Assembly: GCA_002753395.1 (NCBI GenBank)
Contig: PEAB01000002.1
Coordinates: 1 to 64,000 of the forward strand
Source of the DNA: Nitrospirae bacterium MYbinv3
GTDB lineage: Bacteria > Nitrospirota > Thermodesulfovibrionia > Thermodesulfovibrionales > Magnetobacteriaceae
Direction of reading: 5' to 3'
DNA length: 64,000 nt
The notes beneath the pieces were generated by a model. That model was not told where the DNA came from. It did not search any database and was given only the letters and a program-made list of their open reading frames with translations. Position numbers and translations under genes: made by a program. Shown here in pieces: positions 34,164-38,595 of this stretch. Positions within the stretch are counted from its first letter, which is position 1; each line of letters opens with the position of its first letter.

Positions 34164-34452
34164 AGAGGGCTGCCCTGCCTATAGAAAACGATAAAGGCGT
34201 ATCCTCCTAAAAATACATGGTAATTTATATTATGGTTTCAAGACATGGATTGCCACTTTTGTGGGAATGACAGTAATAGCCGTTTTCCAAGGGGGTGCGA
34301 CCCCCTGCGTCATTGTATGTCATTCCTGCGAAAGCAGGAATCAAGAAAGCTTAAAAGCATAGTTACTATGAAATATAAAGAAGATACATAGAGGTATCTC
34401 TGCCTTTTCTAAAAACAGAAATTACTAGAGCCATAGAGCAGGAAAGCAGTAT
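34164..34452. mobile_element. Gap with full-length family B element carrying an extra hairpin
   Basis: Bases 34199-34387 are a complete reversed family B element, from GTATCCTCC to GATAC. Between its two usual palindromes sits an additional hairpin, AGGGGGTGCGACCCCCTGCG (about 34288-34307), which other copies lack. The terminal repeats containing CATGGTAA and the complement are clear. The rest is leader to the sialic acid synthase gene. No coding frame is seen. Confidence 0.7.
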
Positions 34453-35526
34453 ATGACGAGCATCACAATACAGGATAGAAAAATAGGCGTAGGTGAGCCT
34501 GTTTTTATTGTAGCCGAGGTCTCGGCTAACCATCGCCAGAGGCTTGACGTCGCCCTCAAGACCCTTGAAGCGGTCAAGGAGGCAGGCGCTGATGCGGTCA
34601 AATTTCAGACGTATACGCCTGATACCATCACGATAGATTCACATCAGGAGTGGTTTCAGATAAAACACGGCACCATCTGGGACGGTAAAACCCTATATCA
34701 ACTCTACAAGGAGGCCTATACACCATGGCATTGGTATGGCACGCTCAAGACTGTAGCTGAGGATTTAGGGCTTATCTGTTTCTCATCGCCATTTGATAAG
34801 ACAGCCGTGGACTTCCTGCACGAGATGCAAACACCAGCATACAAGGTGGCCTCATTTGAGATAACCGATATCCCGCTTATACAATACATAGCATCAAAGG
34901 GCAAACCGGTGATCATATCAACCGGCGTGGCAGAACTCTCAGAGATAGAGGAGGCCGTTGCAGCCTGTAAGGATGTTGGTAATGAAGACATCATCCTGCT
35001 TAAATGTTCAAGCATCTACCCAACGCCCTTTGACGAGATCAATCTAGGGGGGCTTACTTATCTGAAGGAGCATTTTAAGACCGTCGTTGGTCTCTCGGAT
35101 CATTCAACCAGCATATCGGTACCAGTGGCCTCGGTAGTTTTGGGGGCCAGCGTGATTGAAAAGCACTTTACGCTGGATCGTGCGCTGGGTGGCCCAGACA
35201 GTGAGTTTTCTCTTGAACCGTCAGAGTTCCGGCGGATGGTGCAGGCCGTAAGAGAGGTCGAGGCAGCGCTGGGTGATGCCAGTTATCGTCTCAGTGAAAG
35301 GGTTAGACAAAACAGGGTTCATGTCCGTTCCCTCTTTGTTGTTAAGGATGTACAAGCAGGGGAGTCATTTACACAGGATAATGTAAGGTCTATAAGGCCT
35401 GGTCATGGACTCCATCCGAGGTATCTTAAGGACATACTAAGTAAAAGGGCCACAGCGTTTATCAAGCGAGGGACTCCGCTAAGCTGGCAGCATGTTGAAA
35501 AAGAAGAAGGGGAGGACTGTCATTGA
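34453..35526 (+). CDS. N-acetylneuraminate/pseudaminic acid synthase family (PseI/NeuB)
   Basis: This enzyme condenses phosphoenolpyruvate with an N-acetylated sugar to form a nonulosonic acid. The 357-residue protein has the TIM-barrel NeuB domain (FIVAEVSANHRQRLD, AVKFQTYTPDTITID, KVASFEITDIPLI, LSDHSTSISVP, IEKHFTLDRALGGPDSEFSL). A C-terminal SAF antifreeze-like domain follows from about residue 290 (VRSLFVVKDVQAGESF). EKHFTLDR.. with SLEP favours the PseI subgroup. Its stop overlaps the TTG start of the next gene (TTGA). No other pseudaminic or sialic acid genes are adjacent. Confidence 0.88.
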   Translation: MTSITIQDRKIGVGEPVFIVAEVSANHRQRLDVALKTLEAVKEAGADAVKFQTYTPDTITIDSHQEWFQIKHGTIWDGKTLYQLYKEAYTPWHWYGTLKTVAEDLGLICFSSPFDKTAVDFLHEMQTPAYKVASFEITDIPLIQYIASKGKPVIISTGVAELSEIEEAVAACKDVGNEDIILLKCSSIYPTPFDEINLGGLTYLKEHFKTVVGLSDHSTSISVPVASVVLGASVIEKHFTLDRALGGPDSEFSLEPSEFRRMVQAVREVEAALGDASYRLSERVRQNRVHVRSLFVVKDVQAGESFTQDNVRSIRPGHGLHPRYLKDILSKRATAFIKRGTPLSWQHVEKEEGEDCH

Positions 35527-36509
35527 CCTCCAAACCTGTAATAAAGACTATCATTCCGCAGATGGGAAACACCTATAGCTCATTTCCGTCAGTGGTCGAG
35601 TACAATAATTATTTGTATTTTTACTATCGCCAGGGAGTTAAGGACAGCTATCAGTGTCATGGGCTTAACGGCAAGGTGCGATGCCTTAGGATCGAAAAGG
35701 CATGTCTCTTAGGACGTTTTAGGGACGACGATGACAGCCGCCCTCAACTGGAGATGGGTGAGGATTTTTGTGTCTTTGATGGTGAAAACGAGCTTGATGC
35801 CATCGTATGTCGCTTAGAGAGCGAACTCTTCACCCTTTGTAGCAGGGTATACGTAAGAGATACGTTTGCCGCAACCTACATATCGTTTTCGAGACTGCCG
35901 ATGTTTGATAGCAGGCATGAGGTCGTCGTAAAGGGCGTTGATTGGGTAGTGTTTTACGGAAAACCGTTTAGGTGGGTCTCAGGGTATGTGTTTTCAGCCT
36001 ATGGGGTGTTAAAGGGAGGGACTGATAGTATACCGTTAGTCCTTTATACGGAGGATTTCACATCTTGGAGCGTGATGTCTTATGTAAAGAGTATCCATAA
36101 AAACGTGATACTTAACGAAAACTCTATTGTTTATGACGGTTCTAGATACATCATGTTTATCAGGCAGGACTCAGCTCCTTATGGCATATGGTACTGTGTC
36201 TCAGGAGACCTTCAGGGTTGGAGTGAGCCAGTTAAGTTGATTAGTTCGGCTGTTGCCCCAATGGCGATCGTCAAGGACGGCAGGTGCCTTTTATCGTTTC
36301 GTTACCTGTACAATAATGACCACAGCGCTATTTCTATCATATCGCCTTTTGAAGAGGTCAAGATGGACAATATAGAGACCTATGAAGGTAGTCCCTTTGA
36401 CGGTGGTTATACAGATTTGACGTTTATAGACGATTGTCTTTTTGTCTTGTATTACGTGGGCAACGTCAATGGCGAACCCTACATACGATTGGCAAAGGTT
36501 TCAATATAG
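35523..36509 (+). CDS. Beta-propeller-like protein, possibly glycosidase/sialidase-fold
   Basis: This is a 328-residue protein that I do not recognise as a named family. It is rich in short beta-strand blocks with aromatic repeats (YNNYLYFYYRQGV, SIVYDGSRYIMFIRQD, GIWYCVSGDLQGWSEPVKL, LSFRYLYNNDH, DCLFVLYYVGN), the look of a five-bladed propeller as in sialidases or GH43/32 glycosidases. No signal peptide or clear catalytic motif is seen. It starts with TTG overlapping the NeuB-family stop and is followed by exosortase. Its position suggests a role in sialic-like sugar transfer or hydrolysis, but this is inference. Confidence 0.5.
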   Translation: MTSKPVIKTIIPQMGNTYSSFPSVVEYNNYLYFYYRQGVKDSYQCHGLNGKVRCLRIEKACLLGRFRDDDDSRPQLEMGEDFCVFDGENELDAIVCRLESELFTLCSRVYVRDTFAATYISFSRLPMFDSRHEVVVKGVDWVVFYGKPFRWVSGYVFSAYGVLKGGTDSIPLVLYTEDFTSWSVMSYVKSIHKNVILNENSIVYDGSRYIMFIRQDSAPYGIWYCVSGDLQGWSEPVKLISSAVAPMAIVKDGRCLLSFRYLYNNDHSAISIISPFEEVKMDNIETYEGSPFDGGYTDLTFIDDCLFVLYYVGNVNGEPYIRLAKVSI

Positions 36510-37018
36510 CAAACGAGCGTACAAGGGCGATTTATCTTATAGTAGAGTATCTATCGTTGTCGGGACTGATTTGTGTCTTACTGCTTTTCAAGCCGATAGT
36601 AGACCTTATAGATATAAATGGTCTGTATACAAACTTTGTGGTGTTTTTAAGTGCCAAGACAATAGGCGGTCTACTTAGAATCCCCTGTTCGTATGACGGC
36701 TCTATTATAGGCTTGCCAGCCATAAGTCTTGATGTTCGATTTGGCTGTAACGGTCTGGAGGCTGTTATAATGTTCGCTATTGCCGTGATAGTGTTTCCAG
36801 CGCCGTGGAGGATTAAATTAAAGGGTATTTTGGCTGGCTTTGTGATTATTCAGTTCTTAAACATTTTAAGGATAGCGGTGCTTGCCTATGTCGGGGTTTA
36901 TCACAAAGGGGTTTTTGACGTTATCCATATGTATTTTGCACAGGTGATTATGATAGCGGTAGTGTTAGGTATCCTTATGGTATACCTGAACTATGTAAGA
37001 GGGCACAATCCTTCGTAA
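36434..37018 (+). CDS. Exosortase H-like (XrtH) cysteine protease, inner membrane
   Basis: Exosortases cleave C-terminal sorting signals of secreted proteins at the membrane. The triad positions fit: Cys105 in RFGCNGLEA, Arg146 in FLNILRIAV and His165 in FDVIHMYF (residues counted from TTG 36434). Motifs around FPAPWR and at least five membrane helices match XrtH. The true start is uncertain. TTG 36434 lies well inside the previous gene. The first hydrophobic segment begins near 36530, and an ATA at 36506 has AAAGG upstream and overlaps the previous stop as ATAG, but ATA is a rare start. No matching IPTL/PEP-type target is in the window. Confidence 0.8.
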   Translation: MSFCLVLRGQRQWRTLHTIGKGFNIANERTRAIYLIVEYLSLSGLICVLLLFKPIVDLIDINGLYTNFVVFLSAKTIGGLLRIPCSYDGSIIGLPAISLDVRFGCNGLEAVIMFAIAVIVFPAPWRIKLKGILAGFVIIQFLNILRIAVLAYVGVYHKGVFDVIHMYFAQVIMIAVVLGILMVYLNYVRGHNPS

Positions 37019-37049
37019 AATAGCCTTACCACATACGCTGCTGACGGTA

Positions 37050-37613
37050 TTGCGTTTTATGACGTTTTATGCCGTATCGCTTACAATATGGTTTGGTGTT
37101 CAGGATTATTACGGTGTATTTATTGTTGAGATAGCGGCTCCCCTGATAGCCACGGTGAAAGGGATAAAGAGCGAGCTGATTATACACAGGGGCAATGACG
37201 TAATAGCCTCGTTTATATATCAGGGGGGTGGTGCTACACATCAGGTGATAGATGTACTCGTAAAGACATCGTTTTATTCATTTAACGCCCCTTTGACGTT
37301 TGCTGTATTGTCGGTGTTTTACCCGTTTCTAAAGTTGAATCCTGCCTTTAAGAGAGAGTTTCCTTCTAATTATGGGACATATCTTTTCTACCTTCAAGTT
37401 CTTGGGTCGCTATTTATCTTTCACGTCGTGATAGTGTTTTTCATGTTAGGAAAGGATCTGTCTGTTATGTTGGCAGGGATGGAGATAGCAACGGCGAGGT
37501 TTAAAGTTGAGTTATGGCTTTTTGCAGGGCAGTTTGTAGAGTATATTGGAAAGAGGGTAGAGCCTTTGCTTGTGGGGTTTTACATCTTTATCAGGTTTTT
37601 TAGTTTTAGATAA
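37050..37613 (+). CDS. Exosortase-associated integral membrane protein
   Basis: This is a 187-residue membrane protein with about four hydrophobic segments (MTFYAVSLTIWFGV, FNAPLTFAVLSVFYPFL, FYLQVLGSLFIFHVVIVFF, PLLVGFYIFIRFFSF). No catalytic motif is visible. It lies directly after the exosortase, where the XrtH-associated membrane protein family occurs, so it is probably the partner that holds or presents substrate. TTG 37050 or ATG 37059 could start it; the open frame extends upstream to 36999, so a rarer start is possible. A factor-independent terminator follows at about 37620. Confidence 0.6.
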   Translation: MRFMTFYAVSLTIWFGVQDYYGVFIVEIAAPLIATVKGIKSELIIHRGNDVIASFIYQGGGATHQVIDVLVKTSFYSFNAPLTFAVLSVFYPFLKLNPAFKREFPSNYGTYLFYLQVLGSLFIFHVVIVFFMLGKDLSVMLAGMEIATARFKVELWLFAGQFVEYIGKRVEPLLVGFYIFIRFFSFR

Positions 37614-37619
37614 AGGGAA

Positions 37620-37652
37620 GGGAGAGGATTATGTCCTCCCCCCAATTTTTTT
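37620..37652 (+). terminator. Factor-independent terminator after the exosortase operon
   Basis: A GC-rich stem, GGGAGAGGA paired with TCCTCCCCC around a TTATG loop, is followed by a run of seven T residues at 37646-37652. It lies 7 nt after the stop codon of the exosortase-associated gene. It may also slow the opposite strand at the cytochrome gene end. Confidence 0.7.
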
Positions 37653-37685
37653 GTTGAAAGGGAAGCAACTCATATCGAGTCTTTA

Positions 37686-38039
37686 TTACTTCTTATGGCA
37701 TCTAGAACAGTTTTCTTTTGCGCTTGCATTAAAAATAGGCTGATCTTTGCCACCAGCATTAAAAGTGGCTTTTCCGTTATGACAGGCGCCGCAAAATTTA
37801 CCTTCTGTAAGGTCTTTCATCGTTATCTTAACGGTTCCTTTTTTCATCTGTGGAAATAGGTCCGCCTTATGACAATCAGGGCATTTCTTACCGGCATCAG
37901 CATGTTTTTTGCCGTCAAATAATACCTTTCCATCCTTGCCACCTTCATACTCAATCGTCTTTCCAGGCATGACAGCCATCGCAACACCAGTAAATGCAAA
38001 AGCCATAACAACAGCTATTACAGCAATTTTAAATCTCAA
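37686..38039 (-). CDS. Periplasmic triheme cytochrome c (c7/c3 family)
   Basis: This is a small cytochrome with a signal peptide (FKIAVIAVVMAFAFTGVAMA). Three CxxCH heme c sites, CPDCH, CGACH and CSRCH, sit at about residues 56, 86 and 114 of the longest frame. Three hemes, lack of other domains and about 95 mature residues fit the c7 type used to shuttle electrons in the periplasm of metal-, nitrate- or sulfur-respiring bacteria. A GGAGGTG ribosome site overlaps a GTG at 38048, so the more natural start is TTG 38039. It lies downstream of the exosortase operon on the opposite strand. Confidence 0.88.
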   Translation of the reverse strand: MRFKIAVIAVVMAFAFTGVAMAVMPGKTIEYEGGKDGKVLFDGKKHADAGKKCPDCHKADLFPQMKKGTVKITMKDLTEGKFCGACHNGKATFNAGGKDQPIFNASAKENCSRCHKK

Positions 38040-38048
38040 TCTGTACAC

Positions 38049-38595
38049 CTCCTCTCATAGTATCCATATATGTTCAAAATGAACTATATAGAATAAAACT
38101 ATAACTCAAGCCGTGTCAAGGGGGCGAATTTTGAATTGTTAGGGATTGATTCTGATAATGGTTCTTATTTATTAATGCTCACCTGTTAAGATACTGTAAA
38201 GAAGAAGGGATCATATTTACAAGGACAAGGAGTTACCGCAAGAATGATAACTGTTACGTAGAACAGAAGAACTACTCAGTGGTACGTTGAATGGTTGGTT
38301 ATATGACACAATCGAGGAGCTTACAGTGGGGTGCATAAGAACCACCATGACCTTACGGACACAACAAGCAATGAAAATCCTTGATAAAGAACTTGAGGTT
38401 CGTACCGATAAACTGGAATTCGCAGTTAAAGAAAAAGCCAAAAAAGACACGGAGTTAAAAGAGGCCTTAAGACACGCTGGATTGCTGTAACCGCGCCCGC
38501 CTTTGTTTCTATAATCCAACGCGTAATTAAACATTACGCTTACATTCTCACAAAAGCTATCAACGACTTCCCTTGTCGTCGTTTAGATTATCTTG
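38049..38595. other. Gap between cytochrome and nuoJ: leader, transposase relic, family C end
   Basis: Bases 38049-38131 are the leader of the cytochrome gene. Bases 38132-38330 hold a dead transposase (separate entry). A family C end GGGGTGCATAAGAACC lies at 38328-38343. An open frame, 38350-38490 on the plus strand, encodes a charged helical peptide (DKELEVRTDKLEFAV) of no recognised family. nuoK, nuoL, nuoM and nuoN, expected next after nuoJ, are not found. Confidence 0.5.
38132..38330 (+). pseudogene. Relic of a DDE (rve-type) transposase/integrase
   Basis: In one frame bases near 38139 encode LLGIDSDNGSYLL, the second catalytic Asp region (usually GIDSDNGSEF). After a frameshift, bases 38189-38275 encode YCKEEGIIFTRTRSYRKND and then NCYVEQKNYSVVR, whose Glu lies in the VEQKN block of DDE integrases. 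A TGA follows, then MVGY. Together these match the C-terminal half of an integrase-core transposase, broken by at least one frameshift and one stop. The N-terminal half and inverted repeats are gone. Confidence 0.7.

Follow-up and report, generated by a model that had tools for sequence, protein, structure and literature searches.

Pseudaminic acid synthases of the PseI family condense 2,4-diacetamido-2,4,6-trideoxy-L-altrose with PEP, and we know of no pse operon containing a sialidase-fold beta-propeller of the type described below. The overlap and close spacing of genes, as found in the locus described here, are often a sign of coordinated function. On the side of protein sorting, exosortases have been known since 2006 to co-occur with exopolysaccharide genes (PMC1569441), so that the presence of sugar genes near an exosortase is not new in itself, and the literature searched contained no paper mentioning an exosortase together with nonulosonic acid.

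The window, i.e., the whole stretch of 64,000 nucleotides analysed here, belongs to a 3.7 Mb draft genome. Its family (f1) is regarded as a family of magnetotactic-type Nitrospirota, since the contigs of relatives that carry the propeller belong to such Nitrospirae MAGs and Candidatus taxa (nDJH13bin1, nDJH13bin3, Candidatus Magnetocorallium paracelense, and Candidatus Magnetomicrobium cryptolimnococcus). An initial annotation had described a NeuB-family synthase, a beta-propeller protein, an exosortase H, and a membrane partner as one operon that might link surface sugar synthesis with protein anchoring. In the present analysis, the locus brings two units, each of a known kind, into local proximity, and PseI with its propeller, on the one hand, and the XrtH pair, on the other, are very probably two independent units lying side by side.

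Gene Organization of the Locus

The four open reading frames are packed in order on the + strand, as the initial annotation had it, and encode PseI (357 aa), the propeller (328 aa), the exosortase (36434-37018 as listed), and the partner (37050-37613 as listed) in succession (Table 1). The first two genes are indeed joined by a TTGA overlap, the propeller starting at a TTG (35523) within the PseI stop codon. The exosortase gene also begins inside or at the end of the propeller gene, as had been proposed, either at the first TTG of the listed frame (36434) or, more likely to judge from the alignment of homologues, at the ATA at 36506, where this alignment begins and which is preceded by AAAGG at 36494-36498 and forms an ATAG overlap with the propeller stop.

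Table 1. Features of the locus, in window coordinates.
Feature	Position	Strand	Basis
PseI, pseudaminic acid synthase, NeuB and SAF domains	34453..35526	+	TIGR03586, PF03102, PF08666
Six-bladed sialidase-fold beta-propeller	35523..36509	+	AlphaFold2 model, Foldseek
XrtH-type exosortase, probable ATA start	36506..37018	+	TIGR04177, TIGR04178
Exosortase H-associated membrane protein (divergent), start ATC 37008 or TTG 37050	37008..37613	+	BLASTP, alignment
Cytochrome c7-type protein, convergent, far edge of exosortase indel	37686..38048	-	PF14522, 59.3 bits
Exosortase and partner stretch, missing from sister-species locus L011	36495..37676	+	blastn collinearity

For the exosortase, ATA 36506-36508 is the only start on offer where homology begins, with TTG 36434 as the alternative. 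The homology of the partner extends upstream of TTG 37050 to about 36999-37008 in the alignment of homologues, and ATC 37008-37010, with GAGGG upstream, is the only start on offer where it begins. Rare start codons or a loss of the start are possible in both genes.

A promoter scan was uninformative, with fewer sites than in shuffled sequences, and an Rfam search gave no matches. In the intergenic region upstream of pseI (34294-34340), short inverted GC-rich repeats (GGGGGTGCGACCCCC and ATTCCTGCGAAAGCAGGAAT) resemble dispersed repeat elements. The GC content is 41% in the exosortase pair and 49% in PseI, the window mean being 46.8%; since the adjoining cytochrome gene has 40.5%, the composition of the pair alone is no sign of transfer.

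PseI and the Pseudaminic Acid Pathway

The NeuB-family synthase of the initial annotation is, more specifically, a PseI, with 483.6 bits against the NCBIfam model TIGR03586 (cut-off 340.25) and with the PF03102 (303 bits) and PF08666 (41.6 bits) domains, and it is the only PseI over this cut-off in its genome. Other members of the pathway are found elsewhere in the same genome: PseB (473 bits) and PseC (469 bits), both over cut-off, lie together on contig C105, where they adjoin FlgE/FlgD-like genes, and PseG (213 bits, over cut-off) lies on contig C122 with an SDR gene, while PseF and PseH are without individual confirmation. In two relatives (G005 and G011), genes for PseG, SDR, ATP-grasp, HAD, and PseI are neighbours, so that the pseI gene here has the appearance of a pse cluster gene that has moved elsewhere. 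Moreover, in the relative G006 the HAD–PseI–propeller genes lie near genes that resemble flagellin, FlaG, and FliD in sequence, and Pse is likely destined for flagellin or a surface glycan. PseI and the sialidase-fold propeller would, in this way, form a first unit belonging to a dispersed pseudaminic acid pathway (PseB, PseC, and PseG being on other contigs), in which PseI would carry out the condensation of the altrose derivative with PEP.

When 13 same-family genomes were searched for the Maf-like family PF01973, 12 had no match, and the single match was in G007, a genome without a PseG match. The same-family genomes with PseI/PseG have no PF01973 match, and most relatives studied here combine Pse genes with the lack of a recognizable Maf-type transferase, the type expected to transfer nonulosonic acid to flagellin. 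The idea that the propeller replaces Maf found no support, since PF01973 is missing from these 12 genomes irrespective of the presence of the propeller.

The Sialidase-Fold Propeller

The product of the second gene is a beta-propeller in its modelled fold, in agreement with the initial annotation, and has no family match by sequence in Pfam or NCBIfam; sequence searches against the PDB gave chance matches only, and none was found in phages. The AlphaFold2 model, built with six homologues (pLDDT 88.8, pTM 0.90), has the strand order of six blades with the N-terminal strand closing the ring. The top PDB structures in Foldseek were 5hx0, a Dyadobacter protein of unknown function, and the Pseudomonas pseudaminidase 2w38/3h6j (for 2w38, E 4.4e-10, TM-score 0.73 by query length, and 16% identity), followed by sialidases and trans-sialidases. 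Among the positions invariant in the alignment of homologues are E199, R214, R260, and a DGGYxD motif, and the first three could correspond to the sialidase Glu/Arg/Arg. Sialidase active sites have an Arg triad that includes the FRIP Arg, a nucleophile pair of Tyr and Glu, and an acid-base Asp. In place of the Arg of the (F/Y)RIP motif known from sialidases, the propeller, as far as the sequence alone can tell, apparently has Ser/Ala, the window protein reading YSSFP. The protein has no apparent signal peptide and is therefore expected to be cytosolic.

A scan of contigs with a single-sequence query found no propeller, and the same scan with an alignment query found five loci. The family is present in 5 of the 19 f1 genomes and absent elsewhere in a 396-genome sample of the phylum. 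All five genomes carry PseI, and the propeller adjoins PseI or is near it in five of six loci: in other genomes it directly follows PseI in L009, L011, and L013, and in L010 intervening genes separate the two. In L012, it is accompanied by an acetyltransferase/DUF4910 fusion and a methyltransferase, and the G009 copy does not adjoin PseI.

Two further observations concern these loci. Next to both PseI–propeller copies of G006 lies a gene for a further propeller-looking protein, about 500 aa long (L009:7642-9147, + strand; L010:8275-9753, - strand), the L009 protein having no Pfam match. The propeller gene of the sister species has about 43 extra residues inserted in frame (L011:8812-8941), with repeats of the unit NQERxLRxCGSHP.

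A Pse-processing or Pse-binding role is the best guess, and the propeller would most likely act in the cytosol by binding or processing pseudaminic acid or a glycoside of it. The narrower proposal of a new cytosolic sialidase-fold enzyme family, so far only from magnetotactic-type Nitrospirota, that hydrolyses, transfers, or modifies the pseudaminic acid of the adjacent PseI is tentative and rather unlikely. Alternatively, the propeller could be a regulatory or scaffolding protein that acts independently of nonulosonic acid and has only the fold in common with sialidases, a reading that is less likely than not: the protein has no detectable sequence relation to glycosidases, the (F/Y)RIP Arg is apparently replaced, and the G009 copy lies away from PseI, whereas most of its neighbours in fold are glycosidases of nonulosonic acids, with a pseudaminidase among them, and both the position next to or near PseI in most loci and the occurrence of PseI in every propeller genome argue for a role linked to Pse.

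The Exosortase Pair and Its Candidate Substrates

The exosortase scores 55 bits against TIGR04178 (cut-off 23). Its earlier naming as exosortase H stands insofar as XrtH is the best subfamily and Cys81, Arg122, and His141 (codons 36746-36748, 36869-36871, and 36926-36928), the catalytic residues, are invariant across 10 homologues, but its 77.4 bits against TIGR04177 fall below the cut-off of 86 bits; homologues at L015, L018, L021, and L024 reach 86.3-92.0 bits. The partner gene directly follows and is homologous to members of the NCBIfam family XrtH_assoc (NF041730). The window protein itself has no family match and does not reach the NF041730 cut-off (35 bits), while homologues over it have 36-55 bits and that of L055 only 11.8; in a single BLASTP comparison (2e-24), it is 35% identical over 194 positions to the partner gene product of L017. 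In the exosortase tree, the window groups with G008 (support 98/93) and then with G009 (92/85), not with the same-genus G001, and since both neighbours also carry the propeller, a loose exosortase–propeller link may exist within f1.

The second unit would be a standard XrtH cassette, in which a membrane exosortase is aided by the XrtH-associated partner and, by analogy with its family, would cleave and re-anchor secreted proteins with IPTLxxWG-type C-termini. The search of the genome for XrtH-type sorting signals, which had been suggested along with the initial annotation, returned candidates. An intact secreted protein of 687 aa on contig C66, with two Lcl_C domains and Pro-Thr repeats, ends in VPTINEWGTITLITLSALMMAHRLRKRRST (VPTINEWG...RKRRST) and scores 21.9 bits against TIGR04174 (cut-off 20.5). 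An M6-type metalloprotease on C148, ending in VPALDAWSIAGLIALSAVLMYNAQRKRLNNMDRC (VPALDAWS...), is a weaker candidate, being found with a home-made signal model only (E 0.64). Broken copies of the C66 Lcl_C/IPTL substrate gene on contigs C111 and C41 (L074 and L075) suggest the duplication and decay of exosortase substrates. On contig C105, the neighbourhood of pseB/pseC and the flagellar genes also encodes another large Lcl_C-like secreted protein (L070:1-3585, - strand), whose C-terminus lies outside the stretch read.

Among relatives, IPTL-CTERM signals over cut-off occur in 16 of 25 exosortase genomes vs. 1 of 75 others (Fisher p 2.3e-11, uncorrected for relatedness and only indicative, because the genomes are related). 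Given this co-occurrence and the candidate substrates, a functional XrtH system is the simplest reading, with cleavage predicted from the family. It is improbable that the pair was acquired and is now decaying or without function, as the apparent ATA/ATC starts, with no ATG or GTG where homology begins, and the broken loci on C111 and C41 might suggest, since both frames are open over their full length, the three catalytic residues are retained, there are alternative TTG codons, and the genome has candidate substrates that are intact.

Distribution of the Two Units among Relatives

The comparison across relatives points to two units rather than one operon. In a sample of 100 relatives, own genome counted, an exosortase (E < 1e-20) is present in 25, 15 of which are outside f1, and none of these 15 has a PseI over cut-off. 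The exosortase and its partner are found together in 19 of 20 order-level exosortase loci, the window counted, with L026 lacking the partner. By contrast, PseI is missing from the flanks of all 19 remaining exosortase loci, as read over 1.5 kb (about 5-7 kb for four same-family loci). Conversely, relatives among the magnetotactic-type Nitrospirota have the PseI–propeller pair with no exosortase beside it, and the other PseI and propeller loci read all lack an exosortase.

The clearest case is the sister species G002 (locus L011), in which the regions on both sides of the exosortase pair are retained: window 34435-36494 and 37677-38124 are collinear with L011 7449-9658 and 9805-10257 (blastn), and the intervening window 36495-37676 (roughly 1.2 kb, exosortase and partner) faces only about 146 bp in L011 (9659-9804). 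The cytochrome c7 gene of the window is 75% identical to the gene right after the propeller in this species, whose genome (88% complete) shows neither an XrtH-like exosortase nor an IPTL-CTERM match. Since PseI, propeller, and cytochrome c7 are collinear and the pair is missing, the exosortase and its partner represent a presence/absence cassette of about 1.1 kb, which would have come to lie between the propeller and cytochrome genes by insertion here or would have been lost in the sister species, and which is probably just co-transcribed.

Three points run counter to two separate units, namely that the exosortase and partner lie under or outside the formal NCBIfam cut-offs, that all four genes overlap or are closely spaced, and that G008 and G009, the neighbours of the exosortase in its tree within the family, have the propeller as well. 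Nevertheless, a functional operon coupling pseudaminic acid synthesis to exosortase anchoring, e.g., with Pse in an anchor glycan or on sorted proteins, is highly improbable: the TTGA and ATAG overlaps with short spacings, the known association of exosortases with exopolysaccharide genes (PMC1569441), and the propeller in all three same-family genomes of the window's exosortase subclade favour it, but none of the other genomes examined has the conserved four-gene order that the initial annotation proposed to look for, the sister species retains pseI–propeller with no exosortase found, and exosortase genomes outside the family lack PseI over cut-off. With this synteny found in one genome only, the proposed coupling of surface-sugar synthesis and anchoring is unsupported, and with it goes an attractive but local argument from gene neighbourhood for linking nonulosonic acids to exosortase anchoring. 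What the two-unit reading documents is an XrtH system with candidate substrates in magnetotactic-type Nitrospirota, and the part worth testing is the sialidase-fold companion of PseI, restricted to the family and cytosolic by prediction.

Comparison with Known Systems

Compared with PseI (TIGR03586) of flagellin glycosylation pathways, the window gene is alike in its score over cut-off, in the presence of PseB, PseC, and PseG, and in the location of PseBC by flagellar genes, and differs in its separation from the rest of the pse genes and its pairing with a propeller. This propeller shares its six-bladed fold with the Pseudomonas aeruginosa pseudaminidase (2w38/3h6j) and GH33-type sialidases but has no match to them at the sequence level, no apparent signal peptide, and, apparently, no FRIP Arg. 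Finally, with respect to the Exosortase H system (TIGR04177, NF041730, and TIGR04174), the window exosortase scores lower than the cut-off (77 vs. 86 bits), the partner is outside NF041730, and substrates are few in the own genome vs. 20 matches in the relative G092. Nevertheless, both are alike in the two-gene order, the catalytic Cys/Arg/His, an own-genome substrate with PTxxxWG, TM helix, and basic tail, and strong co-occurrence at the order level.
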